64,000 nucleotides of DNA, from assembly GCF_003330845.1 (NCBI RefSeq), contig NZ_CP026121.1, forward strand, positions 7,173,501-7,237,500, given 5' to 3'. This DNA comes from Streptomyces sp. Go-475. GTDB taxonomy: Bacteria > Actinomycetota > Actinomycetes > Streptomycetales > Streptomycetaceae. This document shows positions 6,234 through 51,872 of this stretch, piece after piece. A program made the position numbers and the translations under genes. The number at the start of each line of letters is the position of its first letter. Position 1 is the first letter of the stretch. Under the pieces are notes generated by a model. It was not told the origin of the DNA and did no database searches. It was given only the letters and a program-made list of their open reading frames with translations.

Positions 6234-7726
6234 CGGCGGCCTCCCCGGCCGCGCCGGGCGGCCGCCGGGCCGAACCAGCGGTCCAGTGCGGTGCTCACGC
6301 CGTGGTGGCTGCCGGGGGCGGCCCAGGCGACATGGCCGTCCGGGCGCAGCAGGACGGCACTGGTGCCGGCCAGCGGGCTGTCGTCGGGCAGGGCACCGGG
6401 GGTGGCCGTCACGATGTCGACGCGGGCGCGCCAGCCCTCGGCGCGGCGGCGCAGTACGGCGTTGTCGGCGAGGTCGAGCAGCACGCCGCGGCCGGGCCGC
6501 AGCAGCTCGGTGCTGCTGGTGGCCCGGGTGCCGGCGGTCAGGGGCAGGTGGGGCATGCGGCGGCCGAGGAGCGGGTGGGTGCCGGGGCCGACGTCGTAGC
6601 GGATGTCCAGGCCGCTGACCTTGGCGGCGAGGTGCCGGGCCACCTCGGGGTACGGGAGGAGTTCGGACAGCACGTCGCGCAGCGGCTGCACCTCGGCGCC
6701 GCCGAGGACGAGCAGGCTCTGGGCCTGGGTGTTGGCCAGCATCCGGCGGCCGACCTCGTGGCGCTCGGTGTGGTAGGTGTCGAGCAGCGACGCGGGGGCG
6801 TCGCCCTTGAGGACGGCGGCCAGCTTCCAGCCGAGGTTGAAGGAGTCCTGGACGCTGGTGTTCATGCCCTGTCCGCCCGCGGGCAGGTGCACGTGCGCGG
6901 CGTCCCCGGCGAGCAGGACACGTCCGCGGCGGTACTCCGTCACCTGGCGGGTGGCGTCGCCGAACGCGCTGACCCAGACGGGTTCGGCGTGCGAGATGTC
7001 GATGCCGGTGAGCCGCTTCCAGTGATCGGCGACCTCCGCGAAGGCGGGCGGGGCGGTGCGCCGCTGCGGGGGGATGCCGCGCTCGCCGACGATGATCCGG
7101 TGGATCCCGCCGGGCAGCTTGGCGACCATCACGAAGCCACCGCCGACCTGCTGACCCGTCATGCGGGGCTCCAGGTCGACGCCGCGGATGTCGGCCAGCA
7201 GCATCTCCGTGGTCGCGGCGGTGCCGGGGAAGTCGAATCCGGCCGTCTTGCGCACGGCGCTGCGGCCGCCGTCGCAGCCGACGAGATAACGGGCCTCGAT
7301 CTCCTCCTCGCCGGCCGCGCCGCGCACCCGCACGGTGACCGACTCCCCGCCGTCGCTCAGGTCGAGGAAGGTGTGCCCGCGGCGGATGTCGGCGCCGAGT
7401 TCGGTCGCCCAGGACTCCAGGGCCGCCTCGGTGACCGACTGGGGTACGGTGCGGGCCGCCTGGTGGGCGGCGCCGAGCACCCCGACGTCGAGGGGCAGGC
7501 CGCCGAAGTGGCCCATGTCGCTCGTCTCGTACGCACCGAGGCGGCGCAGCAGCCCGCGTTGGTCGAATATCTCCATGGTGCGGGTGGCCAGACCTATTCC
7601 CCGGGATTCTCCGGTGCGCTGTGGCAGGCTTTCCAGCACCGTCACGTCAATTCCCGCGAGACGCAGTTCCCCGGCGAGCATGAGCCCTGCGGGCCCGGCT
7701 CCGACAATGACCACCGAAGTGTCCAT
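6230..7726 (-). CDS. FAD-dependent angucyclinone hydroxylase (PgaE/JadH/UrdE-like)
   Basis: A 498-residue class A flavoprotein hydroxylase. FAD-binding VGAGPAGLMLAGEL is near residues 7-20, GCDGGRSAVR near 150-160, VLLAGDAAHVHLPAGGQGM near 280, and a full C-terminal thioredoxin-like domain (about 400-498) includes GRGVLLDLADN. The ATG at 7724-7726 is chosen because AGGGGA precedes it. The longer frame upstream has no ribosome site. Members of this group hydroxylate C-12 or C-12b of the angucycline skeleton using NADPH and oxygen. It overlaps the fusion gene by four bases. A 168-bp gap separates it from the epsilon subunit gene, so it may have its own promoter. Confidence 0.9.
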   Translation of the reverse strand: MDTSVVIVGAGPAGLMLAGELRLAGIDVTVLESLPQRTGESRGIGLATRTMEIFDQRGLLRRLGAYETSDMGHFGGLPLDVGVLGAAHQAARTVPQSVTEAALESWATELGADIRRGHTFLDLSDGGESVTVRVRGAAGEEEIEARYLVGCDGGRSAVRKTAGFDFPGTAATTEMLLADIRGVDLEPRMTGQQVGGGFVMVAKLPGGIHRIIVGERGIPPQRRTAPPAFAEVADHWKRLTGIDISHAEPVWVSAFGDATRQVTEYRRGRVLLAGDAAHVHLPAGGQGMNTSVQDSFNLGWKLAAVLKGDAPASLLDTYHTERHEVGRRMLANTQAQSLLVLGGAEVQPLRDVLSELLPYPEVARHLAAKVSGLDIRYDVGPGTHPLLGRRMPHLPLTAGTRATSSTELLRPGRGVLLDLADNAVLRRRAEGWRARVDIVTATPGALPDDSPLAGTSAVLLRPDGHVAWAAPGSHHGVSTALDRWFGPAAARRGRGGRR

Positions 7727-7894
7727 GCATATCCCCTGACGTACCCGCGACGGAAATCGAATACAAGGTCTGCCGACATCATTCCGGAGATTCAGAAACC
7801 GGTTCAAGCGGCTCCGCTCCAGAGGAATCACAAGAAATGTCAGGCGAATGAAAAGTCCGCTGACACCGCGGCGGCCGCACGCGCCGCGAGAAGG

Positions 7895-15416: not shown

Positions 15417-17189
15417 TCAGTCCTTGATCTCGCAGATCACCGCGCCCGAGGTCACCGACGCGCCGATCTCGGCGGACAGGGCCTTGATCGTGCCGGACTT
15501 GTGGGCGTTGAGGGGCTGTTCCATCTTCATGGCTTCCAGGACGACGACCAGGTCGCCTTCCTTGACTTCCTGGCCCTCCTCGACCGCGACCTTGACGATC
15601 GTGCCCTGCATGGGGGAGGCGAGGGTGTCGCCGGAGGCGACGGGGCCCGACTTCTTCGCCGCGCGGCGCTTCGGCTTGGCGCCCGCCGCCAGTCCCGTAC
15701 GGGCCAGGGACATGCCCAGCGAGGACGGCAGGGAGACCTCCAGCCGCTTGCCGCCGACCTCGACGACGACCGTCTCGCGGCCCGGCTCCTCGTCCGTCTC
15801 GGCGTCGGCCGGCGCGGCGAACGGCTTGATCTCGTTGACGAACTCCGTCTCGATCCACCGGGTGTGGACCGTGAACGGGTCGGACGAGCCGGTGAGCTCC
15901 GGCGCGAAGGCGGGGTCCTTCACCACCGCGCGGTGGAACGGGATGGCGGTGGCCATGCCCTCGACCTGGAACTCCTCCAGGGCCCGGGCGGCGCGCTCCA
16001 GGGCCTCCTTGCGGGTGCGGCCGGTGACGATCAGCTTGGCCAGCAGCGAGTCCCACGCCGGGCCGATCACGCTGCCGGACTCCACGCCCGCGTCCAGGCG
16101 CACGCCCGGGCCGGACGGCGGGGCGAACGTGGTGACCGTGCCGGGCGCCGGGAGGAAGTTGCGGCCCGGGTCCTCGCCGTTGATGCGGAACTCGAAGGAG
16201 TGACCGCGCAGGACCGGGTCGTCGTAGCCCAGTTCCTCGCCGTCGGCGATGCGGAACATCTCGCGCACCAGGTCGATGCCGGCGACCTCCTCGGTGACCG
16301 GGTGCTCCACCTGCAGGCGGGTGTTGACCTCCAGGAAGGAGATCGTGCCGTCGAGGCCGACGAGGAACTCGACCGTGCCGGCGCCGACGTAGCCGGCCTC
16401 CTTCAGGATGGCCTTCGACGCGCGGTACAGCTCGGCGACCTGCTGCTCGGACAGGAACGGCGCGGGGGCCTCCTCGACCAGCTTCTGGTGGCGGCGCTGC
16501 AGCGAGCAGTCACGGGTGGAGACGACCACGACGTTGCCGTGGGTGTCGGCCAGGCACTGCGTCTCCACGTGGCGCGGCTTGTCCAGGTAGCGCTCGACGA
16601 AGCACTCGCCCCGGCCGAACGCGGCGACGGCCTCACGGACCGCCGAGTCGTACAGCTCGGGGACTTCCTCGAGGGTGCGGGCGACCTTCAGGCCGCGGCC
16701 GCCGCCGCCGAAGGCGGCCTTGATGGCGATCGGCAGCCCGTGCTCCTCGGCGAAGGCGACGACCTCCTCCGCACCCGAGACCGGGTCGGGCGTGCCCGCC
16801 ACCAGCGGGGCGCCGGCGCGCTGCGCGATGTGCCGGGCGGCGACCTTGTCACCGAGGTCGCGGATCGCCTGCGGGGGCGGGCCGATCCAGATCAGGCCCG
16901 CGTCCAGGACCGCCTGGGCGAAGTCGGCGTTCTCGGAGAGGAAGCCGTAGCCGGGGTGGATCGCGTCCGCGCCCGACTCCCGCGCGGCCTTCAGCACCTT
17001 CTCGATGTCGAGGTAGCTGGTGCCCGGGGTGTCACCGCCCAGGGCGAACGCCTCATCCGCGGCGCGGACATGCGACGCGTCCCGGTCCGGGTCGGCGTAG
17101 ACGGCCACGCTCGCGATCCCGGCGTCCCGGCAGGCCCGGGCCACGCGGACAGCGATTTCGCCACGGTTGGCGATCAGCACCTTGCGCAC
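15417..17189 (-). CDS. accA: acyl-CoA carboxylase alpha subunit (biotin carboxylase plus BCCP)
   Basis: A 590-residue biotin-dependent carboxylase subunit, the usual length for Streptomyces AccA proteins. It starts [20 protein letters not shown], has the ATP-grasp glycine loop [11 protein letters not shown] (about 160-170) and the catalytic [14 protein letters not shown]. The C-terminal biotinyl domain carries EAMKME with the biotinylated Lys555. It acts with the beta and epsilon subunits at 7895-9725 to make malonyl-CoA. Its place next to the TcmI-type cyclase and divergent from the regulator corresponds to jadJ of the jadomycin cluster. It ends 199 bp before the cyclase start, and that gap holds the TGTCAGA repeats. 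Confidence 0.95.
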
Positions 17190-36174: not shown

Positions 36175-36381
36175 TTAACCTCCGCCGGACCTCCGGCTCC
36201 CGGCCGCCGCGAACAGGGCGACGCCGAGCGCGAGCAGCGCGACGCTCGCGTAGACCTCGAACCCGTCGAGGAACCCCAGTCGTTGCACGACGCCCCAGTT
36301 CCAGTCGGTGAACTCGTGCACCAGGCCCGCCACGCCCTGGAGGAGGGCGAGGAAGCCGAGAACCTCCATTGCCTGCTTCAT
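36175..36381 (-). CDS. small membrane protein
   Basis: A 68-residue protein beginning MKQAMEVLGFLALLQGVAGL with two hydrophobic segments (about 7-22 and 43-62) and a positively charged C terminus (GSRRSGGG). CGAGGA precedes the ATG. It resembles small actinobacterial membrane proteins with a conserved HEFTDWNWGVVQRLGFLDG loop. No function is known. It is divergent from the histidine kinase gene. Confidence 0.7.
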   Translation of the reverse strand: MKQAMEVLGFLALLQGVAGLVHEFTDWNWGVVQRLGFLDGFEVYASVALLALGVALFAAAGSRRSGGG

Positions 36382-36561
36382 TCCTCGAGCCTCGCCCCGA
36401 AGGCTCGCCGCGCGCATCGGCCACGGGGCGGGCACCCCGGAACGGAAGTTCCCTCTCCGGCTCGGCCGGCCGCGCCGAAAGTCTGCGGTGCGGCGACTTT
36501 GGTCCAGGATCTCTCCCGAGGAGAGGTGGAACGGGCCGTCGGCTGCGTAGATTTGTCGACC

Positions 36562-37836
36562 GTGAAGTGTGACGACGTGGGGCAGGCCTCCCCGGTGCCG
36601 TGGGGAGAGACACCCGCGCTGTTCACCGGGCGGAGATGGTTCATCCCGTCCGCGCTCCTCCACGAACTCGAGCCCGACGCCACCCGGGCCGGGCGGCGGC
36701 CCCGGCGCACCGCCCGGGACTGGGTCGTCGACTTCTCCTGCTTCCTGCTGGCCGTCGTGGTGGGCGCCATCGCCGTCGAGGCGCTCCACCACAACCCCCA
36801 CGTGCCGCCCGGACTGGCCGTCGTCGACCAGGTGGTCGGCGCACTGGCCTGCGCGGCGGTCTGGCTGCGCCGCCGCTGGCCGTTGGGGCTGGCCGTGGCC
36901 ATGACGCCCGTCACCTTCGTCTCGGACACCGCGGGCGGCGCGGGCCTCATCGCCCTGTTCACCCTCGCCGTGCACCGCCCCTTCCGGTACGTGGCCTGGG
37001 TGGGCGGGGTCAACGCGGCGCTGGCCCCGCTGTACTACTGGCTGCGTCCCGACGCGGACGTCCCGTACGTGGTGAGCGTGCCCTTCGCCGTGGTGCTCAC
37101 CGTGGCGATCGTGGGCTGGGGCATGTTCGTACGGGCCAAGCGGCAGCTGCTGCTGAGCCTGAGGGACCGGGCCCGGCGGGCCGAGACGGAGGCGCGGCTG
37201 CGGGCCGAGCAGGCGCAGCGGCTCGCCCGCGAGGCCATCGCGCGGGAGATGCACGACGTGCTCGCCCACCGGCTGACGCTGCTGAGCGTGCACGCGGGCG
37301 CCCTGGAGTTCCGGCCCGACGCGCCCCCGGCGGAGACGGCGCGCGCGGCGGGTGTGATCCGGGAGAGCGCGCACGAGGCCCTGCAGGACTTACGGGAGAT
37401 CATCGGCGTGCTGCGGGCGGGTGAACCCGACGACACGGGCCGGCCGCAGCCGACCCTCGCGGCGCTGGACACGCTGGTCGCCGAGTCCCGCGAGGCCGGC
37501 ATGAAGGTCTCCCTCGACCAGCGCGTCGACGACCCCGCCGCCGTCCCCGCCTCCGTCGGCCGCACCGCCTACCGGATCGCCCAGGAGGGCCTGACCAACG
37601 CCCGCAAGCACGCGCCCGGCGCGGAGGTCACCGTGTCCGTCGGCGGCGCACCGGGCGAGGGCCTCGCCGTCGCCGTACGCAATCCGCCGCCCGAGGGCGA
37701 GGTGCCACCCGTCCCCGGCTCCGGCCAGGGCCTGATCGGCCTGACGGAGCGGGCGACCCTCGCGGGCGGCCGCCTGGAGCACGGCGCCACTCCGGACGGC
37801 GGATTCGAGGTACGGGCCTGGCTGCCGTGGTCGTGA
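36562..37836 (+). CDS. NarL-type membrane sensor histidine kinase
   Basis: About 424 residues. Several hydrophobic segments (about 55-185) are followed by a HisKA_3 dimerisation domain with the phospho-acceptor in REMHDVLAHRLTLLS and an HATPase domain (RIAQEGLTNARKHAPGAEV, GSGQGLIGLTERATLAGG). The start is uncertain: in-frame GTG codons at 36562, 36577 and 36595 lack clear ribosome sites. No response regulator is adjacent, and the nearest NarL-type regulator is at 44522, on the far side of the CHAT/caspase genes. They may pair. Confidence 0.85.
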   Translation: MKCDDVGQASPVPWGETPALFTGRRWFIPSALLHELEPDATRAGRRPRRTARDWVVDFSCFLLAVVVGAIAVEALHHNPHVPPGLAVVDQVVGALACAAVWLRRRWPLGLAVAMTPVTFVSDTAGGAGLIALFTLAVHRPFRYVAWVGGVNAALAPLYYWLRPDADVPYVVSVPFAVVLTVAIVGWGMFVRAKRQLLLSLRDRARRAETEARLRAEQAQRLAREAIAREMHDVLAHRLTLLSVHAGALEFRPDAPPAETARAAGVIRESAHEALQDLREIIGVLRAGEPDDTGRPQPTLAALDTLVAESREAGMKVSLDQRVDDPAAVPASVGRTAYRIAQEGLTNARKHAPGAEVTVSVGGAPGEGLAVAVRNPPPEGEVPPVPGSGQGLIGLTERATLAGGRLEHGATPDGGFEVRAWLPWS

Positions 37837-37869
37837 TCCGAGCCCGCGGGCCGGCACGCGGCCGCGGGC

Positions 37870-38040
37870 CTGCATGAGGCCGCTCGCCCCCCCGGGGCCG
37901 CCCGGCAGTGTGGCCACTCGCCAGCCCGTGCGGCCACTCGCCCCTGCGGCCGCCCGCCCGCGAGGCCACCCGCCCGTGCGGCCACTCGCCCCTGCGACCG
38001 CTCGCCGGTACGGCCGCCCGCCCTGCGGCCGGTCGCGGGT
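37870..38040. repeat. degenerate 15-19 bp GC-rich repeat
   Basis: About eight variants of GCGGCCACTCGCCC(CT) recur in direct orientation, for example TGCGGCCACTCGCCC at about 37929 and again at about 37977. The array lies in the 280-bp gap between the kinase stop and a small open frame. Open frames across it are repeat artefacts. Confidence 0.7.
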
Positions 38041-38117
38041 CCGCCGCCGCGCCGGCGGTCTGAGGGCCTGGACCGAAGCCCTTGTGGCCGGTGAGGTGAC
38101 CGGCGGATCATGGGCAT

Positions 38118-38270
38118 ATGTCGCCAGCCGCACCGCAGTTGGAGGTCGTGTCCGTGCCGACGGAGGTGAGGACGGTCCGGGCGGGGTTCGTGTGGCCGTC
38201 GGAGCGCGAGCCGGCCGACCGGGTCGCGATCCTCTGCGACGACCGGGGCGGGCGCGAACGAAGGGCGTGA
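38118..38270 (+). CDS. possible 50-residue protein upstream of the CHAT gene
   Basis: ATG at 38118 opens a 50-codon frame ending with TGA at 38268-38270, two bases before the CHAT protein GTG. The product begins MSPAAPQLEVVSVPTEVRTV and ends CDDRGGRERRA, is highly charged and has no recognised domain. The tight junction suggests translational coupling, and the GAAGGG at its end can serve as ribosome site for the next gene. The frame could also be a leader without a functional product. Confidence 0.4.
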   Translation: MSPAAPQLEVVSVPTEVRTVRAGFVWPSEREPADRVAILCDDRGGRERRA

Positions 38271-38271
38271 C

Positions 38272-41200
38272 GTGACGACACCGTACGACCCGCAGGCACT
38301 GCTGTGGGAGATCGAGCAGCGGACGCGGGGCGTCGTCAGCGGTGAGGATCTCGCCGGGCTGGCCGCGCTGGTGCTGGACCGGCTGGGCTGTACGACGGCC
38401 CGCCAGGCGTACGACCGCCTGTACGCGGACTGGGCCGGACTGCCCCGGGGCGGTGTCGCGTCCGGGCTGCGGGCCGGTCAGGTGCTCAGCCTGCTCCCGC
38501 TGCTGCGGCTCGAAGGGCCGCTCGCCGACGCGCGGCAGGAGGAGGAACTGTGGCAGGCGATGTGGGAGCACGGGCCGGCGGACGAGACGTGGAAGGCGAA
38601 CGTCGTCGTCAAGCACAGCGCGTGGGGCCTGCGGCACCTCACCGACCCCGAGCAGCTGGAGGCGGCGCTGGCCCGGATCGAGCGGGCCCGGGCCGCGCAC
38701 CCGCCGGGCACCCGCATCCGCGAGAACCTGGACATGGCCCATGCCGGGCTGCGGACCTATCTCGGCCAACTGGGCGGCGGTGAGGACGATTTCGACACGG
38801 CCGTCGACGACATGGCCCGGCTCGCCGAGTCCTCGGACCTGACACCGGACCAGCGTCTGGTCATGGCCGCGCAGATCGCCCTGCTCCGCATCCACCAGGC
38901 CTTCCGCCGCGCGGACGAGCCGGCCCTGGCCGAGCAGATCCAGGTTCTCGAAGCCGCCCTCAACCGGCTGCCGGCCGACCACATGGACCGGTTCGCGTTC
39001 GAGTCGCACCTGGAAGCCGCCCGGGGCTCCCTGACCTACCTGCGGGCCCAGCGCACCGGCCGGTTCGAACCGGCCGCCGAAGGAGCCGACGCCGCGACGC
39101 CCACCCAGGAGATCCGGCGCCGGATCGCCACCCTGCCGGTCAACGCCCAGGCCGACAAACTGGCCGAAGCGGCCTTCGCGGTGGGACAGCGCGCCCTGCT
39201 CGCCATGGACCACCAGGGGATGCTGGAGTCCCTGGCCCTGCGGGAGGCCGCGCTGGACCTGCTCGAACCCGACGACGACCGGTGGATCCGCGTCGCGGGC
39301 GGGCTGGGCGTCAGCCACTGCGTCATGGCCGACCTGGAGCTCGCACCGCCCGCCGACCGCGCCCTCCACCTCGACCAGGGCATCGCCTGGCTGCGCCACA
39401 CCCTGAGGCTCACCGGCGGACCCCACCACCCGCTGTGGGGCGGCACGGGCTTCAACCTGGCCAAGGCCTACCGCCTGCGGGGCGACGCGCACGCGCACGA
39501 CAGCCGCGTCAGACGCCTGAACTACGACGCCTCCCGCCGCGTCGGCCTGGAGTGCCTGCGCGCGGACGCCTGGAGCTCCCTGCTCCAGTCCGGTACGGCC
39601 CATGCCGCGCAGACCGCCCGGATGGCGGGCGGCCAGGCCCTCGACGTGGCCCGCTGGTGCCTGGCCGACGGGGCCCACACCGACGCCGTACGGGCCCTCG
39701 ACGCGGGGCGCGGTCTCGTCCTGCACGCGGCGACCGTGGCCACCACCGTGCCGGACATGCTGAGGGAACTCGGCCGGCCGGAGCTCGCGCGGGAGTGGCA
39801 GGACGCGGGCAGCGTGCCCGAACTGGGGGAGGAGATGCTGTTCGCCGCGCAGACCGCGGTCGCCGGGCCCTCCAGCCGGCTGCGCCGACGGGTCCTGGAG
39901 GCGCTGGCCGGCTCCCCACGGCACCAGGCACTGCTGGACGTGCCCTCACCCGCCGACATCGGCAACGCGCTGCACGCCCTGGGCGCCACGGCACTGGTCT
40001 ACCTCGTGCCCGGCGACGGGGCCGTACCCGGACTCCTCGACTCCCGGCCCGGCTTCCGGTCCGACTCCGGCGCGGCCGTCGTCGTCACCGCCGACGGCAC
40101 CACCCGCTCCCTCGACCTGCCCGACCTCACCCTGGACGCGCCCCCGCTCACGACGTACCGCGCCACCGGCACCCCGGGCCGTGCCGCCGACGGCCCGCAC
40201 GACGCCGGGGCGGCCGCGGGCCGGGGGACGGGCATCCCCGGCGCCGCCACCCGCGCCCCGGACAGCGGCACGGGCTTCCCCGACAGCGGCACCGGATTCC
40301 CAGGCAGCGGCACCGGCTTCCTCGCCTCCGCGATGGGCGCCCCGGGCACCGGTACCGGCCTCCCCGGCCACGCCACCCCCGCCCCCGGCCGCGACGCCGG
40401 TGGCCCGCTTGGCGCCGAGTCGCCGTCCGGGCCCGCCCCGAGCCCGGAGGCGAGTCGGCACGCCCTGGAGGAGCTGTGCGCCTGGGCCGGTACGGCGGCG
40501 ATGCGACCCGTGCTGAGCCAGCTGCCGCGCGGCTTCGGCCGGGTGCCCTCGCTGGTGCTCGTCCCCATGGGCGACCTGGGTGTGGTGCCCTGGCACGCGG
40601 CCCGCGTGCCGGGCCGGCGCCGCTCGCACGGATACGCCTGCGAGGAGGCGGCCATCTCCTACACGCCCTCCGCCCGGCTCCTGTGCGAGGTGGCCGCCCG
40701 GCCCGCCGCCGGCACCCGGCAGACCCTCGTCGTCGGCAACCCGACCCGCGATCTGCACCACGCCGGCGAGGAGGCCGAGGCCGTCCACCGCGTCTTCCAC
40801 CCGGACGGCGACCTCCTCGGCCCCGGCACCGCCACACCCGCGGCCGTCACCGACTGGCTGCGCCGGCAGCGCGGCGGACTGCTGCACCTGGCCTGCCACG
40901 GCGTGGTGCGCCAGGGGGAGCGGCACAGCGCGTATCTCGCCCTGTCCGGCGGGCGGTTGGCCGCGGAGGAACTGACCGAGGGCGCGACCCGCTACCGCGG
41001 CCTGGACCTGGTGGTGCTCGCCGCCTGCCGCACCAACGTCTCCGGGCACGGCTACGACGAGGCGTACAGCCTGTCGACCGCGTTCCTCGTCGCGGGCGCC
41101 CGCTCGGTCATCGGCTCCCTGTGGCCGGTGCCCGACGAGGCGACGTCCCTGCTGATGTACATGACCCACCACTTCATGAGCCGGGAGGGCCTGCCGCCGG

Positions 41201-41349
41201 GCCGGGCACTGCGCAGCGCCCAGTCGTGGATGCTGAACGACCGCCGGGAGGCGCCGCCCGGCATGCCGGACCGGCTGCGGGCCCGGGTCGGCGACATCCG
41301 CGGCGACGACCTGACCGCCTGGGCGGGCTTCACCCACCTCGGCTGGTGA
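38272..41349 (+). CDS. CHAT-domain protease with N-terminal helical repeats
   Basis: A 1025-residue protein. Residues about 1-560 are helical, TPR-like repeats. A Gly/Thr/Pro-rich linker with a GTGFP-type repeat lies at about 645-715. The C-terminal caspase-like CHAT domain (about 720-1025) has the catalytic dyad His876 (LLHLACHGVV) and Cys919 (VVLAACRTN) and the typical GARSVIGSLWPVPDE. CHAT proteases cleave partner proteins when the helical part senses a signal, as in the gRAMP/Craspase and gasdermin-linked systems. It converges with a caspase-family gene only 7 bp away, so the two form a probable unit. The target is unknown. Confidence 0.9.
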   Translation: MTTPYDPQALLWEIEQRTRGVVSGEDLAGLAALVLDRLGCTTARQAYDRLYADWAGLPRGGVASGLRAGQVLSLLPLLRLEGPLADARQEEELWQAMWEHGPADETWKANVVVKHSAWGLRHLTDPEQLEAALARIERARAAHPPGTRIRENLDMAHAGLRTYLGQLGGGEDDFDTAVDDMARLAESSDLTPDQRLVMAAQIALLRIHQAFRRADEPALAEQIQVLEAALNRLPADHMDRFAFESHLEAARGSLTYLRAQRTGRFEPAAEGADAATPTQEIRRRIATLPVNAQADKLAEAAFAVGQRALLAMDHQGMLESLALREAALDLLEPDDDRWIRVAGGLGVSHCVMADLELAPPADRALHLDQGIAWLRHTLRLTGGPHHPLWGGTGFNLAKAYRLRGDAHAHDSRVRRLNYDASRRVGLECLRADAWSSLLQSGTAHAAQTARMAGGQALDVARWCLADGAHTDAVRALDAGRGLVLHAATVATTVPDMLRELGRPELAREWQDAGSVPELGEEMLFAAQTAVAGPSSRLRRRVLEALAGSPRHQALLDVPSPADIGNALHALGATALVYLVPGDGAVPGLLDSRPGFRSDSGAAVVVTADGTTRSLDLPDLTLDAPPLTTYRATGTPGRAADGPHDAGAAAGRGTGIPGAATRAPDSGTGFPDSGTGFPGSGTGFLASAMGAPGTGTGLPGHATPAPGRDAGGPLGAESPSGPAPSPEASRHALEELCAWAGTAAMRPVLSQLPRGFGRVPSLVLVPMGDLGVVPWHAARVPGRRRSHGYACEEAAISYTPSARLLCEVAARPAAGTRQTLVVGNPTRDLHHAGEEAEAVHRVFHPDGDLLGPGTATPAAVTDWLRRQRGGLLHLACHGVVRQGERHSAYLALSGGRLAAEELTEGATRYRGLDLVVLAACRTNVSGHGYDEAYSLSTAFLVAGARSVIGSLWPVPDEATSLLMYMTHHFMSREGLPPGRALRSAQSWMLNDRREAPPGMPDRLRARVGDIRGDDLTAWAGFTHLGW

Positions 41350-41356
41350 CGGCTCC

Positions 41357-43228
41357 TCACACCTCCGTGCGGACGACGACCTGTGCCGTCCCCCACCGGC
41401 CCGCCCCGTACGCCGGACCGCCCGCGTCCCGGCCGCCCTCGGTGCCCGCCCCGACCAGCCGCAGCAGACCGCCGTCCCCGCCGGCCGGCGCCGGGCTCAG
41501 GCGCGCTCCGGAGGGCGCGGCGGGGGACCAGGCGGGCAGCCGGAAGGGGGCGAGGTTCAGTTCGTCCTCCGCGACGATCACCTTCAGCCAGTCCCGGGTG
41601 AAGGCGCCCGGCACCGGTGCGCGCCCCTGTGGCAGCCGCAGCCACACGGGCTGCCCGCGCCGGGCCCACCCGGCCCTGCCGTCCCCGATGAACTCGCCCT
41701 CGAACAGGTGCGGGGACGAGCCGTAGCTGTCCGTCAGGTCGAGCAGGACCGCCCACAGGTCGCGCCCGGAGGAGTTGTGGATCCCCACCCGCACCTGCGG
41801 CTCCCGGCCGTCGGGCGCGTACCCGCAGACGATCTCGCCGTCCGCCGCGTGCCGCAGGCTGCCCACCGGCGTCTCCTCGACGGTGATCCGCACCAGCGAC
41901 GACAGCAGCGGATCGGGGTTGGCGAGATCCCGGATGTGGTGCCAGCGCGCGATGTGCGCCAGGCAGTCGGCGACGCGCGCCGCGTCCGCGGGGGAGCGCA
42001 GCGGCAGGTCCGGCACGGGATGACCGGCCCCGCCCGACACCCGCGCCCGGCCGCCCCCGGCCGCCACGCGCAGCCGCAGGAGGCCCGCTTCCGCGGATTC
42101 CGGGGAGGGCCCGTCCGACGCGAGGGCCAGCGCGGGCACCGCCTCGACGGCCTCGGCGACCATGCGCACGGCGACCGCCTCACCGGACAGCGCCACGACG
42201 GCCGGCGGGAACGCCAGCGCCGACGGGGTGACGGCATGCGCCAGCCGCTCGTCCTCGGCCGTCGGCCGCCAGCCGACCGGGTCCACCAGGGCCGACTCGG
42301 GGCGCACCTCCCGCACCACCACCGCACGCGCCCCGGCGTCCCCGAGCAGCGCGAACTCGGCGCCGGCCGAGCGCAGCCCGTGCGCCGCACCGCAGTTGAC
42401 CTCCCAGCCCCACGGCGTGTGCCGCAGCAGGAAAGGCGAGGCCGGCACCGGCTCGCCGGACAGGAAACCCCCGTCCTCCGGCCCGCGCAGCTCGGGATGC
42501 TGGAGCAGGCTCAGCGCGCGCACCCCGCCCTCAGCGAGCGCGTGCACCTCGCCGTACGTGGCCGAGGGGCCGAGCCGGTCCAGCGCGCTCAGCAGCGCAT
42601 GGCTGAAGCACCCCCGGATCCGGCCGTCGAGGAAGTGCTCGTACGCGCGCTCCTGCGGCCGGCACGCGGCCAGCAGCACGTGCCGGCCCGGCTCGGGCCC
42701 CTGCCCTCCGCCGTCGCGGGACGTCCCGCGCCACCACGGCTGCCAGGGCACACCCCGCACCGCGGCACCCGAGGGCACGCCGCCGTCCTCCCGCGTCGCA
42801 CCGCCCGAATGGCAGCAGTCCAGCACCGCGACGACATGCGTGCCGCGCGCGGCGAAGCGGTCCAGGAGCGCGCCGAGTTCGGTGTCCCGCAGCACCGGCT
42901 GCCCGCCCGGGACGAGGCTGTCGTGGCACACCAGCGCCTGGGACCAGCCGGTGGCCTCGCCCGGATCGGCGGTCGGGCTCTGGCTGCCGTGCCCGGCGAA
43001 CCACAGCAGCGCGGTGTCGCCCGGGCCGCTGCGCCCGAGGTGCTCCTCCAGACCCGCGAGCACGGCCGCCCGGGTCGCCCGGTCGTCGTACAGCGTCCGG
43101 ATGCGGACCGGCGGGCCGCTCCTGCTCCGCAGCCAGCTCTCCGCGGCCCGCACGTCGTTGACGCAGCCGCTCAGCGGCCGTCCCGGGTAGTCGTCGATGC
43201 CCACGAGCAGGGCGTACACGGTGCGCAT
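41357..43228 (-). CDS. caspase-family (C14) protease with C-terminal extension
   Basis: A 623-residue protein. The peptidase C14/metacaspase domain (about 1-270) has the catalytic His80 in LLWFAGHGSQ and Cys139 in AVLDCCHSGGATRE, and a regulatory-looking insertion follows. The C-terminal half (about 280-623) contains beta-rich segments (RVGIHNSSGRDLWAVLLDLTD, quoted in part) resembling the DUF4384-like modules found behind bacterial caspases. It has no signal peptide. It stands tail to tail with the CHAT gene. Regulated proteolysis, cell death or phage defence are family-based possibilities only. Confidence 0.88.
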   Translation of the reverse strand: MRTVYALLVGIDDYPGRPLSGCVNDVRAAESWLRSRSGPPVRIRTLYDDRATRAAVLAGLEEHLGRSGPGDTALLWFAGHGSQSPTADPGEATGWSQALVCHDSLVPGGQPVLRDTELGALLDRFAARGTHVVAVLDCCHSGGATREDGGVPSGAAVRGVPWQPWWRGTSRDGGGQGPEPGRHVLLAACRPQERAYEHFLDGRIRGCFSHALLSALDRLGPSATYGEVHALAEGGVRALSLLQHPELRGPEDGGFLSGEPVPASPFLLRHTPWGWEVNCGAAHGLRSAGAEFALLGDAGARAVVVREVRPESALVDPVGWRPTAEDERLAHAVTPSALAFPPAVVALSGEAVAVRMVAEAVEAVPALALASDGPSPESAEAGLLRLRVAAGGGRARVSGGAGHPVPDLPLRSPADAARVADCLAHIARWHHIRDLANPDPLLSSLVRITVEETPVGSLRHAADGEIVCGYAPDGREPQVRVGIHNSSGRDLWAVLLDLTDSYGSSPHLFEGEFIGDGRAGWARRGQPVWLRLPQGRAPVPGAFTRDWLKVIVAEDELNLAPFRLPAWSPAAPSGARLSPAPAGGDGGLLRLVGAGTEGGRDAGGPAYGAGRWGTAQVVVRTEV

Positions 43229-43341
43229 GCGCTGATCCTTTCAGGCGTGCCCCCTTCGCTCCGCGGCCAGTTGACCAGGACGTGGCGATGGCTGATGTTT
43301 GTGCCGCCTGCAGCACCACGCGTAACGGAGGGAACACGCAC

Positions 43342-44421
43342 GTGAGTTTCGGGGGACCCACCAACCCGTACCAGCCGCCGAACGGCGGACCCTACCCGCC
43401 GCCTCCGGCCACCGGCCCGTACGTGCCGCCCCAGCCGGGCCCGGTTCCGTACGGCCCTCCGCCGCCCCAGCCGTACCCTCCCCAGCCCTGCCCGCCGCCC
43501 CAGCCCTACCCGTACGTGCCGCCAGGAGGGCCGGGCTCCCGGGGGCCGGGGTGGGGCGGCCCGCGCGGTGCCGAATGGCCGTCGGTGCGTCAGCTGCTGC
43601 GGCGGGGGCAGGGGCGGATCTCCGGCTGCGTGTGGCTGGTGCTGCTCGCCCCGTGCACCTGGTTCACGATGGTTCCGCTCGTGGCGTGCTACTCGTTCGC
43701 CCGCTCGGCCCGCGTCCGCGCCCACCGGCTGTTCCCGCCGCACGGGCACCGGGCCGTCGACGACCGGCAGGTGCTGCGCGTGCAGAAGGCCCGGGCCTGG
43801 ATCGCGGCCGTGATGTCCCTGCTGCTGCTCGCCGTGTACGGCACTCCGGAGGACGCCGTCGAGGCCCGCGAGCTGTACCTCATGCGGCTGGCGGTCACGC
43901 CGCCCCTGTTGCTGCTGAGCGCGCCCGTCGTGATCGCGGTGCTGTTCCGCTGGGCGTCGGACCAGACGCGGTCGGCCATGCGGGTACGGGTACGGGCCGC
44001 GCTGCGGTCGGCCGGCTGGTACATCGGCGCCGTGACGGCCCTGCCGCTGCTCGGCGGGGCGATCGTCCTGCTCGGCCGGGAGCAGGAGGCCTCCTCCGGG
44101 TCGCCGGGCGCCGCCCCCTGGCTGATCATCGCGGCGGCCCTGCCCCTGGTCTGGCTCCTGTTCTTCGTCGGGTTCGCCACCGGCCCGGCCATCCGCACCG
44201 GCTTCAACACCGCGGCCGTGCACCTGGCGCTCCCGGCCCTGCTGACGGGCACGCTGGTGTGGGAGTTCACGGTCATCAGCCTGCTCGCCGGCGGTCTGCC
44301 GCCCGGCCCGCCGGTGATCCAGGTCCTCGCCGTCCTCGGCGGTCCCGCCTCGGTGACGGCGGTGGCCTGGTGGGAGATCCGCCGCCTGCGCGCCCGGCAC
44401 GGGGTGACGCTGCGCGCCTGA
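43342..44421 (+). CDS. proline-rich N-terminal, multi-pass membrane protein
   Basis: A 359-residue protein. Residues 1-70 are a Pro/Tyr/Gly-rich cytoplasmic-type tail (PYPPPPATGPYVPPQPGP). About six hydrophobic segments follow from residue 90 onward. The GTG at 43342 has CGGAGGGAA upstream. It is divergent from the caspase gene (113-bp gap) and 100 bp before the NarL-type response regulator. No enzymatic motif is visible. It could be a membrane sensor or effector for the neighbouring proteases, which is unproven. Confidence 0.8.
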   Translation: MSFGGPTNPYQPPNGGPYPPPPATGPYVPPQPGPVPYGPPPPQPYPPQPCPPPQPYPYVPPGGPGSRGPGWGGPRGAEWPSVRQLLRRGQGRISGCVWLVLLAPCTWFTMVPLVACYSFARSARVRAHRLFPPHGHRAVDDRQVLRVQKARAWIAAVMSLLLLAVYGTPEDAVEARELYLMRLAVTPPLLLLSAPVVIAVLFRWASDQTRSAMRVRVRAALRSAGWYIGAVTALPLLGGAIVLLGREQEASSGSPGAAPWLIIAAALPLVWLLFFVGFATGPAIRTGFNTAAVHLALPALLTGTLVWEFTVISLLAGGLPPGPPVIQVLAVLGGPASVTAVAWWEIRRLRARHGVTLRA

Positions 44422-44521
44422 CCGCACGGGCCGTCAACTCCGCGCCGGCACATGGCTGTCGGCGCGGACCCCTGGCACATCCGCGCCCCGGCGCGCCCGC
44501 GACCGTGATTACGTAAGGCCC

Positions 44522-45196
44522 ATGACTGCGATCAGACTGCTCCTCGTCGACGACGATCCGCTGGTGCGGGCCGGGCTGTCCTTCATGATGGGCGGGGCCG
44601 ACGACGTCGAGATCGTCGGCGAGGCCGCCGACGGCGGCGAGGTGGAGGCGCTCGTCGACCGCACCCGTCCCGACGTCGTGCTCATGGACATCCGGATGCC
44701 GACGGTGGACGGTCTCACGGCCACGGAGCGGCTGCGGGCCCGCGAGGACGCCCCGCAGGTGGTGGTCCTCACCACCTTCCACGCCGACGAGCAGGTGCTG
44801 CGTGCGCTGCGGGCGGGCGCCGCCGGTTTCGTCCTCAAGGACACCCCGCCGGCCGAGATCCTCGCGGCGGTACGCAAAGTCGCGGCGGGCGACCCGGTCC
44901 TGTCGCCGACCGTCACCCGCCAGCTGATGCGGCACGCGGCCGGCACCGCCGCCGACACCCGCCGCACGCGCGCCCGCGCGCGCATGGCCGTCCTCAACGA
45001 CCGCGAGCGCGAGGTCGCCGTCGCCGTCGCCCGGGGCCTGTCCAACGCCGAGATCGCCTCCGGGCTCTTCATGAGCGTCGCCACCGTCAAGACGCACGTC
45101 TCGCGCATCCTGGCCAAGCTCGACCTGAACAACCGGGTGCAGATCGCCCTGCTCGCCTACGACGCGGGGCTGCTGGACGAACAGGAAGAGAGCTGA
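44522..45196 (+). CDS. NarL/FixJ-family response regulator
   Basis: A 224-residue regulator with a complete receiver domain (VDDDPLVRAGL, phospho-Asp55 in VVLMDIRMPTVDG, Lys in FVLKDTPP) and a LuxR-type HTH (LNDREREVAVAVARGLSNAEIA, then VATVKTHVSRILAKL). It belongs with a HisKA_3 kinase, and the kinase at 36562 is the only one in the window and is eight kilobases away. The ATG follows closely after a TTACGTAAGG sequence. Confidence 0.93.
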   Translation: MTAIRLLLVDDDPLVRAGLSFMMGGADDVEIVGEAADGGEVEALVDRTRPDVVLMDIRMPTVDGLTATERLRAREDAPQVVVLTTFHADEQVLRALRAGAAGFVLKDTPPAEILAAVRKVAAGDPVLSPTVTRQLMRHAAGTAADTRRTRARARMAVLNDREREVAVAVARGLSNAEIASGLFMSVATVKTHVSRILAKLDLNNRVQIALLAYDAGLLDEQEES

Positions 45197-48998: not shown

Positions 48999-49043
48999 TC
49001 GGAGACAACTGATCCGACAGGCGGGCGGGAGGTGGCAGGACGT

Positions 49044-51872
49044 ATGGGTGACACGGCTGCGGTGGCCGAGCGGGCGGGGGAGCCGACGGCCCCGGTCCGG
49101 CTCCCGGCCGTCTTCCTGCCCGCGCCCCTGCCGCGCCAGGGACGCATCGCCTTCTGGGACCCCGAGGGCGAGCCCCTGCCCGCCGAGGACACCGAGCTGA
49201 CCGTCGTACGACGGCACGGCGCGGGAGTCCGGCGGCGGACCGCCCCGGCGCTGACCCTCCCGCTGGAAGCGGCCCTGCCGCTCCTGGTGCGGGCGCGCCA
49301 CGACCCGGCGGCCCACCCCGCCACGGCCTGCTGGGGCGCGGCCGCCCTGCACGCCCTGCGGCTCACCGCCCGCGGCCGGCTCCTGCCCGGCCTGACCGCC
49401 ACCGGCCACGACGCCTGGCGCGCGGGCCCCCTCGACCCGGACGACATCGCCCACCTGCGCGCGGTCGCCGCCGCCCTGCCGTACGAAGGGCACGCCGTGC
49501 CGCTGCCCGGCCCGGGCCCGATCCGCCTGCCCGAACCGGAAGCGCTGGTCCGCGCCTTCCTGGACGCGGTCGCCGACACCCTGCCCCGCACCCCGGCCGC
49601 ACCCCACACCACCGGCCGCCCCTTCGCCGCCCGCGAGGCCCAGCACCTGCCCGGCGCCCAGGACTGGGCCGCCGAGGTCGCCGCCGGCATGGACGCCGGC
49701 GTGCGCATCTCGCTCCGCCTCGACCTGTCGGCGTACGACCTGTTCGACGACGCCCTGGACGGCGGGGCGCGCAGCGCCGGCGCGGCCGTCGTCCAGGTGC
49801 ACAGCCTCGCCGACCCCACCCTCGTGGCCGACGCGGCGGCCCTGTGGGCGGGCGAGACCGACGACGCCTTCGGCCCCCGCGCGCGGGTCGACGCCGCCCT
49901 CGCCGTCCGCCGCGCGGCCCGGGTGTGGCCGCCCCTGGACCGGCTCTCCGAGCAGGACGTGCCCGACGTGCTGGCCCTGAGCGAGGAGGAAGTCAGCGAC
50001 CTGCTCGGCATCGCCGCCACCCGGCTCGCCGCGGCCGGTGTCGCCGTGCACTGGCCGAGGGACCTCGCGCAGGACCTGTCCGCCACGGCGGTGGTCCGCC
50101 CCGCGCCCGGCTCGGCGACCGACGGCACCGGCTTCTTCGAGAGCGAGGACCTCCTCCAGTTCCGCTGGCAGCTGGCGCTCGGCGGCGACCCGCTCACCGA
50201 CAGCGAGATGGACGCCCTGGCCGAGGCCCACCGCCCGGTCGTCCGGCTGCGCGACCAGTGGGTGCTGGTCGACCCTGCCCTCGTCCGCAAGGCCCGCAAG
50301 CGCGACCTCGGGCTGCTCGACCCCGTCGACGCCCTGTCCGTCGCCCTCACGGGCACGGCCGAGGTGGACGGCGAGACGGTCGAGGCCGTCCCGGTCGGCG
50401 CGCTGGCCGCCCTGCGCGACCGCCTGACCAGGGGGATCCGCCCGGCCGAGCCGCCCCCGGGCCTGCACGCCACCCTCCGCGACTACCAGCTCCGCGGCCT
50501 CGCCTGGCTCGACCTCATGACCTCCCTCGGCCTCGGCGGCTGCCTCGCCGACGACATGGGCCTCGGCAAGACGATCACCCTCATCGCCCTGCACCTGAAG
50601 CGGGCCCGCCGCGAGCCGACCCTGGTGGTCTGCCCGGCCTCCCTGCTCGGCAACTGGCAGCGGGAGATCAACCGCTTCGCCCCCGGCGTCCCCGTCCGCC
50701 GCTTCCACGGCCCCGACCGCAGCCTCGCCGGCCTGGACGGCGGCTTCGTCCTGACCACGTACGGCACGATGCGCTCGGCGGCCCCCGCCCTGGCCGAGCA
50801 GGCCTGGGGCATGGTCGTCGCCGACGAGGCGCAGCACGTCAAGAACCCCTACTCGGCCACGGCCAAGGCGCTGCGCACGATCCCGTCCCCCGCGCGCGTG
50901 GCCCTCACGGGCACGCCCGTCGAGAACAACCTCTCGGAGCTGTGGGCCCTGCTCGACTGGACCACCCCGGGCCTGCTCGGGCCGCTGAAGTCCTTCCGCG
51001 CGCGGCACGCCCGGGCCGTCGAGACCGGCGAGGACGAGGAGGCGGTCGAGCGCCTGGCCCGCCTGGTCCGGCCCTTCCTGCTGCGTCGCAGGAAGTCCGA
51101 CCCGGGCATCGTGCCCGAGCTGCCGCCCAAGACGGAGACCGACCACCCGGTCCCGCTCACACGCGAACAGGCCGCGCTGTACGAGGCGGTGGTCCGCGAG
51201 TCGATGCTCGCCATCGAGACGGCCGAGGGCATGGCCCGGCGGGGCCTGGTGCTGAAGCTGCTGACGTCCCTGAAGCAGATCTGCGACCACCCCGCGCTGT
51301 ACCTGAAGGAGGAGCACGTCCCGGCCGGAGACCGGCACGCCACCCGCTCCGGCAAACTCGCCCTGCTGGACGAGCTGCTGGACACCTTGCTCGCCGAGGA
51401 CGGCTCCGCCCTGGTCTTCACGCAGTACGTGGGGATGGCCCGCCTGATCACCTCCCACCTGGCCGGCCGCGCGGTCCCGGTCGACCTCCTGCACGGCGGC
51501 ACGCCGGTCCCGGAGCGGGAACGCATGGTGGACCGCTTCCAGGCCGGCTCGACCCCGGTCCTGGTGCTCTCCCTGAAGGCGGCGGGCACCGGCCTGAACC
51601 TCACCCGCGCGGGCCACGTCGTGCACTTCGACCGCTGGTGGAACCCGGCCGTCGAGGAACAGGCCACCGACCGCGCCTACCGCATCGGCCAGACCCAGCC
51701 CGTCCAGGTCCACCGCCTCATCACCGAGGGCACGGTCGAGGACCGCATCGCCGAGATGCTCCAGGCCAAGCGCGCCCTGGCCGACGCGATCCTCGGCTCC
51801 GGCGAGTCGGCCCTCACCGAACTGACGGACCGCGAGCTGTCCGACCTGGTGTCCCTGCGGAGGACGACATGA
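49044..51872 (+). CDS. SNF2-family DNA-dependent ATPase/helicase
   Basis: A 942-residue SNF2/RapA-type ATPase. The N-terminal 430 residues are the bacterial SNF2-associated region. The motor carries motif I DDMGLGKTIT (about 503-512), motif II DEAQHVKN, GTPVENNLSELW, and C-terminal motifs VFTQYVGMARL and QATDRAYRIGQ. The ATG at 49044 has AGGA upstream. GTG at 49032 is an alternative. It overlaps the SWIM gene by four bases. Such SNF2-SWIM pairs are frequent in actinobacteria, and DNA repair or restriction of foreign DNA is suspected. Confidence 0.93.
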   Translation: MGDTAAVAERAGEPTAPVRLPAVFLPAPLPRQGRIAFWDPEGEPLPAEDTELTVVRRHGAGVRRRTAPALTLPLEAALPLLVRARHDPAAHPATACWGAAALHALRLTARGRLLPGLTATGHDAWRAGPLDPDDIAHLRAVAAALPYEGHAVPLPGPGPIRLPEPEALVRAFLDAVADTLPRTPAAPHTTGRPFAAREAQHLPGAQDWAAEVAAGMDAGVRISLRLDLSAYDLFDDALDGGARSAGAAVVQVHSLADPTLVADAAALWAGETDDAFGPRARVDAALAVRRAARVWPPLDRLSEQDVPDVLALSEEEVSDLLGIAATRLAAAGVAVHWPRDLAQDLSATAVVRPAPGSATDGTGFFESEDLLQFRWQLALGGDPLTDSEMDALAEAHRPVVRLRDQWVLVDPALVRKARKRDLGLLDPVDALSVALTGTAEVDGETVEAVPVGALAALRDRLTRGIRPAEPPPGLHATLRDYQLRGLAWLDLMTSLGLGGCLADDMGLGKTITLIALHLKRARREPTLVVCPASLLGNWQREINRFAPGVPVRRFHGPDRSLAGLDGGFVLTTYGTMRSAAPALAEQAWGMVVADEAQHVKNPYSATAKALRTIPSPARVALTGTPVENNLSELWALLDWTTPGLLGPLKSFRARHARAVETGEDEEAVERLARLVRPFLLRRRKSDPGIVPELPPKTETDHPVPLTREQAALYEAVVRESMLAIETAEGMARRGLVLKLLTSLKQICDHPALYLKEEHVPAGDRHATRSGKLALLDELLDTLLAEDGSALVFTQYVGMARLITSHLAGRAVPVDLLHGGTPVPERERMVDRFQAGSTPVLVLSLKAAGTGLNLTRAGHVVHFDRWWNPAVEEQATDRAYRIGQTQPVQVHRLITEGTVEDRIAEMLQAKRALADAILGSGESALTELTDRELSDLVSLRRTT

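Follow-up and report, generated by a model that had tools for sequence, protein, structure and literature searches.

A convergent CHAT protease and metacaspase-like protease in Streptomyces sp. Go-475, candidate survivors of a cassette with a RES toxin side

Gene content of the locus

The 64,000-nt stretch of Streptomyces sp. Go-475 DNA analysed here (the window, within which all coordinates are given) encodes a CHAT protease and a metacaspase-like C14 protease on opposite strands, with 7 bp from stop to stop. Comparison with related genomes indicates that this pair is what remains of a mobile cassette whose toxin side, comprising genes for a RES-domain protein, a protein designated X8 and a macro-like protein, has been lost in this strain. 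The pair is flanked by a NarL-type sensor histidine kinase (HK) and a NarL-type response regulator (RR), with a proline-rich probable membrane protein (MEM) preceding the latter. The gene calls for HK, CHAT, caspase, MEM and RR are backed by open reading frames (ORFs) and guanine-plus-cytosine (GC) content by codon position. Together with the Pfam matches, these confirmed the tail-to-tail arrangement of the proteases in a first-pass annotation made from the sequence alone. The features of the locus are as follows.

36283..37836, + strand: NarL-type sensor histidine kinase (HK; Pfam HisKA_3, 2e-15), given as the longest ORF, with the true start probably later; flank, not part of the cassette
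38118..38270, + strand: deletion scar, where an ORF of 50 aa joins in frame a macro-like start and a decayed RES end (blastn, translation and DNA alignment)
38272..41349, + strand: CHAT protease, 1025 aa, His876/Cys919 (Pfam CHAT, 6.8e-54)
41357..43228, - strand: metacaspase-like protease of family C14 (Pfam C14), 623 aa, His80/Cys139; its C-terminal region is beta-rich and conserved
43342..44421, + strand: proline-rich probable membrane protein (MEM), 359 aa, optional cassette member (start set by comparison with 13 relatives)
44506..44516, + strand: the sequence TGATTACGTAA, directly 5' of RR and part of the two-component locus (motif search of the window)
44522..45196, + strand: NarL-type response regulator (RR; Pfam Response_reg, 7.8e-27; GerE, 5.6e-16); flank, not part of the cassette

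The protease pair and its distribution

The CHAT protein matches its family with 183.7 bits against a gathering score of 24 (PF12770), and Pfam gives no further domain in it. Its neighbour is a C14 protease with a caspase fold, of which residues 1-259 fold as a metacaspase in the predicted structure. These are followed by the beta-rich C terminus of the first-pass annotation, a conserved part of ~360 aa for which no fold match emerged from a structure search whose match list was filled by the caspase domain. The catalytic dyads named in that annotation were also correct, with both residues of each protease unchanged in 23/23 aligned members. The aligned caspases furthermore share a GCxNDV motif with an invariant Asp25, which would fit a basic P1 pocket, as expected for cleavage after arginine or lysine instead of aspartate. 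For the proteases, PADLOC returned a 'caspase' match (1.6e-35) and weak BovA matches. A 42-bp tandem repeat is expanded within the CHAT gene at 40213-40400, between the N-terminal part and the CHAT domain; the protein has 1025 aa in the window versus 951 aa in the loci L018, L023 and L024.

Caspase orthologues occur in 20/199 Streptomyces genomes, the window's own included (E<=1e-30). The C-terminal 305 residues of CHAT matched 30/199 genomes at E<=1e-40, and the matches with at least 58 % identity (E<=9.4e-93) fall in exactly the 20 genomes with the caspase, the next match having 48 % identity. The co-occurrence elsewhere that the first-pass annotation had proposed as a check is thus found. 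In a wider sample of the phylum, the caspase was matched in 2/246 genomes at 1e-35 (the window's own counted). A convergent pair is also present in a genome outside the class (L082), where neither X8 nor RES was matched in a 19.5-kb stretch, while a search for CHAT in phages gave no match. Twenty-five relatives were fetched for comparison, giving 26 cassette loci with the window. The pair lies on opposite strands in 24/25 relatives (tandem in L036), and the distance between the two stops ranges from a 20-bp overlap to 57 bp in 19/25. Wider gaps, some with broken frames, are found in L020, L021, L022 and L040, and in L042 the gap of 9.3 kb contains intervening genes. One genome (G149) holds two different CHAT/caspase pairs (L039 and L040), with X8-RES matched in neither stretch.

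The toxin side of the cassette in related genomes

Genes for the macro-like protein, X8 and RES are all present in 16/25 relatives. In 15 of these the three lie upstream of CHAT on the same strand, and in L034 the macro-like gene sits beyond the caspase. Two of the three genes were seen in L022 and L031, and none in seven relatives (L019, L033, L035, L036, L039, L040 and L042), of which the L039 and L042 stretches end just upstream of CHAT. By this comparison, the full cassette has the order macro-like, X8, RES, CHAT, convergent caspase and, often, MEM. A complete copy is located on plasmid pSCL4 of Streptomyces clavuligerus, where RES is annotated as a RES family NAD+ phosphorylase. Spacing is tight, with 1-5 bp between X8 and RES (17 loci) and 1-7 bp between RES and CHAT (12 loci of the close branch; 38 bp on pSCL4 as annotated). 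RES with at least 56 % identity is encoded in 15/199 Streptomyces genomes, all within the 20 that carry the protease pair.

RES proteins form a family of toxins that consume nicotinamide adenine dinucleotide (NAD+). The protein in the relatives belongs to this family by its Pfam score (PF08808; 65 bits against a cut-off of 23.2), while its profile returned mostly antibody chains from the PDB, which is noise. Three of its residues, Arg27, Glu75 and Ser164, are conserved and probably represent the Arg-Glu-Ser triad named for RES in the accessible text of PMC12457610. The macro-like protein scores 20.1 bits with PF01661, under the cut-off of 22; its best PDB profile match is a TTHA0132 chain (E 0.0023, over the macro region), with macro-domain proteins ranking next.

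X8 belongs to no Pfam family, and a set of 61 members compared with Pfam gave no RES-antitoxin family; its profile had no match in the PDB. The C-terminal half shows a weak fold match to MbcA/NatR-like RES antitoxins through a second-look aligner, while the N-terminal part is extra and helical. As Foldseek alone gave nothing at E<=0.001, the putative antitoxin role of X8 draws on that aligner, on the gene position and on plasmid pairs: two Rhodococcus plasmids typed as mobilizable (L116 and L117) carry stand-alone X8-like/RES pairs with a one-base overlap. Arg75 of X8 is invariant in 61/61 members and falls in the stretch with the lowest mean confidence in the predicted structure (residues 71-80). 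A second alignment placed an arginine at position 75 in 10/10 distant members, though two close members were shifted in it.

Loss of the toxin side in the window

Blastn comparison with seven relatives matched window positions 38073-38182 to the start of the macro-like gene and 38183-38252 to the end of RES. The left matches stop at 38181-38184 and the right matches begin at 38183 in 7/7 relatives, which carry ~2.18 kb (six relatives) or 2.6 kb (L020) between the two. These matches indicate that a deletion of ~2.2 kb joined the macro start (to ~38182) with the RES end (from ~38183), the latter also being short by ~0.1 kb in the window. The window's genome gave no RES match at E<=1e-25, and the window itself retains the scar only. 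Similarly, L019 is without macro-like, X8 and RES genes, and without MEM.

The remaining proteases are still under constraint. Relative to L018, the ratio of non-synonymous to synonymous substitution rates is 0.31 for CHAT and 0.25 for the caspase. The codon changes specific to the window number 19 synonymous to 9 non-synonymous in CHAT, 17 to 6 in the caspase and 8 to 7 in MEM.

The two-component genes and the membrane protein

The first-pass annotation had read the kinase and regulator as partners of the proteases in a split two-component module. Orthologues of RR were found in 26/61 relatives, making 28 loci with two second copies included, and the cassette occupies two of these, in the window and G009. 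The other 26 are free of the proteases and have the kinase upstream of RR, at 2-392 bp in 24 and at ~1 kb in two (L056 and L061). On the basis of common flanking genes, the 26 cassette loci form 16 site groups. The window and eight relatives make up one group, flanked by HK and RR, and intact orthologues of both flank the cassette in none of the other 15. L039 contains two other HK-RR pairs (33-51 % identity), partial matches resembling RR were seen in L030, L033 and L036, and the remaining groups, L027 excepted, have none. In L027, which was grouped separately from the window, a complete cassette lies between a broken RR piece (7443-7736) and a broken HK piece (16410-16734); there HK and RR have decayed while the cassette persisted. 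Since the empty sites keep HK beside RR and L027 keeps the cassette with both broken, the two-component genes are best read as the site of cassette insertion and not as partners. The protease pair of the first-pass composition thus stands, its kinase and regulator are not members, and the X8-RES and macro-like partners were invisible to it, having been deleted here.

The sequence TGATTACGTAA is the sole match in the window at no more than one mismatch, with 0.03 expected. It recurs exactly before RR in the empty sites L046, L047 and L052, with close variants at other empty sites. As it precedes RR in the window and empty sites alike, RR probably keeps its own promoter.

MEM, for which the first-pass annotation had proposed a role as sensor or effector, is present in only 13/25 cassette relatives and also occurs without the proteases. 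It is a loose companion of the cassette, and no family was found for it in Pfam, PADLOC or NCBIfam. Among ten protease-free MEM loci examined, three (L105, L106 and L108) have the order HK-MEM-RR, and the 900 bp that precede MEM in them hold no convincing trace of the cassette (best E 0.004). Because these three loci read HK-MEM-RR, MEM at this site may be either an earlier resident or a leftover of the cassette. Caspase pseudogene fragments lie ~0.3-0.5 kb upstream of an intact MEM frame in L107, another decayed cassette. In a distant branch of the caspase (L032, L033, L035, L041 and L042; L038 in part), a coiled-coil protein, an AAA+ ATPase and small proteins take the place of MEM.

Several further features surround the cassette. 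GC-rich tandem repeats of 16, 32 and 48 bp (37919-38030) follow the kinase gene, ahead of the deletion scar. An SNF2-type helicase with DUF3670 (49032-51872) also flanks the cassette in relatives at the same site; PADLOC matches it strongly to DpdE and ZorD, probably through general helicase similarity. A location in defence islands, suggested as a check by the first-pass annotation, was not supported in a sample of 73 neighbour proteins from 8 loci. These included one AbiEi protein, while PADLOC matches to mad1, mad3, mad8, WYL and C3a186 are probably general. The 25 Pfam families listed, out of 122, included housekeeping families, and one of the 73 proteins matches a Scabin-like Pfam family (2.4e-41).

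A second branch linking CHAT with X8-RES

More distant RES genes (38-44 % identity) occur at 24 further places among the 199 genomes, ten of which were fetched and examined. X8 adjoins RES in 10/10 of these loci and CHAT is encoded within the stretch in 9/10, whereas in L075 the same contig carries a CHAT at a distance of ~16 kb. The caspase was matched in none of the ten stretches. The usual order is CHAT-X8-RES instead of X8-RES-CHAT, with CHAT on the opposite strand in L072. Macro-like matches were found in 9/10 stretches: beside RES in five, ~4 kb off in L076, and as partial matches in L073, L074 and L080, where they sit at the stretch edge ~7 kb off. The three RES residues are kept in 10/10 loci, and the catalytic dyad of CHAT in 9/9. 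Because this branch combines CHAT and X8-RES with no caspase detected, the link between CHAT and X8-RES may be older than that between CHAT and the caspase. A ClpB-like AAA+ gene lies near X8-RES in L073, L074, L075 and L080. A kinase-like gene was also found in L073, L074 and L075, the three of these four loci that were scanned for it.

Proposed function and alternative explanations

The best explanation of the cassette, which we place just on the probable side, is a protease-gated RES toxin-antitoxin system whose toxin is absent from this strain. Its gene order and the co-occurrence of its parts are read directly from the DNA, as are its insertion between two-component genes and the subsequent loss of its toxin side; we infer every step beyond gene content, cleavage included. 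X8 would restrain the NAD+-consuming RES toxin through a C-terminal RES-binding antitoxin domain. CHAT, aided or activated by the metacaspase, would sense a signal and cleave X8, and the freed RES would lower NAD+ until the cell stops or dies. Macrodomain proteins can hydrolyse ADP-ribose cyclic phosphate (PMC8883491, accessible text), so a possible role of the macro-like protein is to bind an ADP-ribose product or to clear it. Some RES proteins perform other chemistry according to the accessible text of PMC12457610. In the window strain, which lacks RES, X8 and most of the macro-like gene, the proteases would be either disarmed or acting on another substrate. A more specific version is tentative and somewhat doubtful: a death programme in which CHAT and the metacaspase cut X8 at a flexible linker near the invariant Arg75, releasing an NAD+ phosphorylase toxin, with the macro-domain protein reading or clearing ADP-ribose-1''-phosphate.

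Alternatively, the proteases could form a cascade of their own, one maturing the other and the substrate being MEM or a cellular protein, with X8-RES acting as an addiction module whose only part is to keep the cassette stable. We consider this rather unlikely, although the pair is the constant core in the same 20 genomes, seven of the 25 relatives show no toxin-side gene, the window pair is still constrained without those genes, and the convergent pair of L082, in another class, was found with no X8 or RES matched. However, an addiction pair need not follow one protease, and the presence of CHAT near X8-RES in nine of ten second-branch loci, in another gene order and with no caspase detected, therefore counts against this reading, as does the inconstancy of MEM. 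It is improbable that the window copy is a decaying relic without present function. The ~2.2-kb loss and the pseudogene pieces of L107 point that way, but the CHAT, caspase and MEM frames are intact, the catalytic residues are kept, and the window-specific changes show no excess of non-synonymous ones in CHAT or the caspase (for MEM they are nearly balanced).

A reversed polarity, with the proteases removing RES or its products as an off-switch for the toxin, is equally hard to favour. The close coupling of RES and CHAT would fit either direction, but an off-switch would not need to persist as it has in the window and L019, which kept the proteases after losing the toxin side. Moreover, toxin-antitoxin systems more commonly pair a stable toxin with an antitoxin that can be cleaved. 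Least credible, to the point of being very nearly dismissed, is dedicated control of the cassette by HK and RR, which does account for their flanking position in the window and eight same-site relatives. Against it, HK neighbours RR without any cassette in 24 of the 26 other loci and lies ~1 kb off in two; none of the other 15 site groups has both as intact flanks, and at L027 both are broken.

Comparison with known systems and significance

The protease-gated RES system proposed here resembles RES-Xre, MbcTA and NatRT in its Arg-Glu-Ser RES toxin, its nearly touching upstream partner gene and the weak MbcA/NatR-like match of the partner's C-terminus. It differs from them in the extra N-terminal helical part of X8, which has no Pfam match, and in having X8-RES linked with CHAT and, in one branch, with a metacaspase as well. 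The protease effectors of type III CRISPR systems, namely Craspase (Cas7-11/Csx29, TPR-CHAT), SAVED-CHAT and CalpL/T/S, share with it a signal-activated protease that cuts a regulator. SAVED-CHAT acts on a prokaryotic caspase. CalpL cleaves an anti-sigma factor (PMC11417357, accessible text). Here, by contrast, the effector side is a RES toxin and CHAT has no further Pfam domain. Identity of CHAT with Csx29/Craspase was rejected, the NCBIfam score of 40.6 bits being far under the cut-off of 300. The two-gene EACC1-caspase membrane conflict system and the proteolytic-cascade conflict systems of multicellular actinobacteria likewise combine a caspase-family protease with a putative membrane partner, as described in the accessible text of PMC7159879, whereas MEM matches no NCBIfam family; an EACC1-type identity for the caspase was also rejected (NCBIfam, 42.3 bits against a cut-off of 140). 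Neither 'CHAT' nor 'RES domain' occurs in the accessible main text of that study (Kaur et al. 2020). Compared with metacaspases and orthocaspases (C14), the caspase is set apart by its beta-rich C-terminal extension. A literature search with partial journal coverage, and hence weak evidence of absence, found no paper on a RES toxin with a CHAT domain, and the whole combination was not among the papers listed. The parts are thus of known kinds and their combination is apparently new, and we regard it as a variant of protease-gated toxin systems and not as a new category.

How RES toxins are switched on is an open question; for NatRT, the signals controlling the toxin are still to be defined according to the accessible text of PMC11535050. 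In the same text no RES system is implicated in immunity, and the known NAD-targeting immunity consists of TIR and SIR2 enzymes. The position of the RES pair beside CHAT in two branches makes this question testable. The interest lies in the system, since the window's own copy is incomplete, serving as an example of a strain that dropped the toxin side while retaining the proteases. The cassette relationship suggests that these proteases may trigger a programme of cell shutdown in their hosts. If true, caspase-type proteolysis would be joined to NAD+ depletion in one bacterial circuit, and a trigger would be known for a RES system for the first time.

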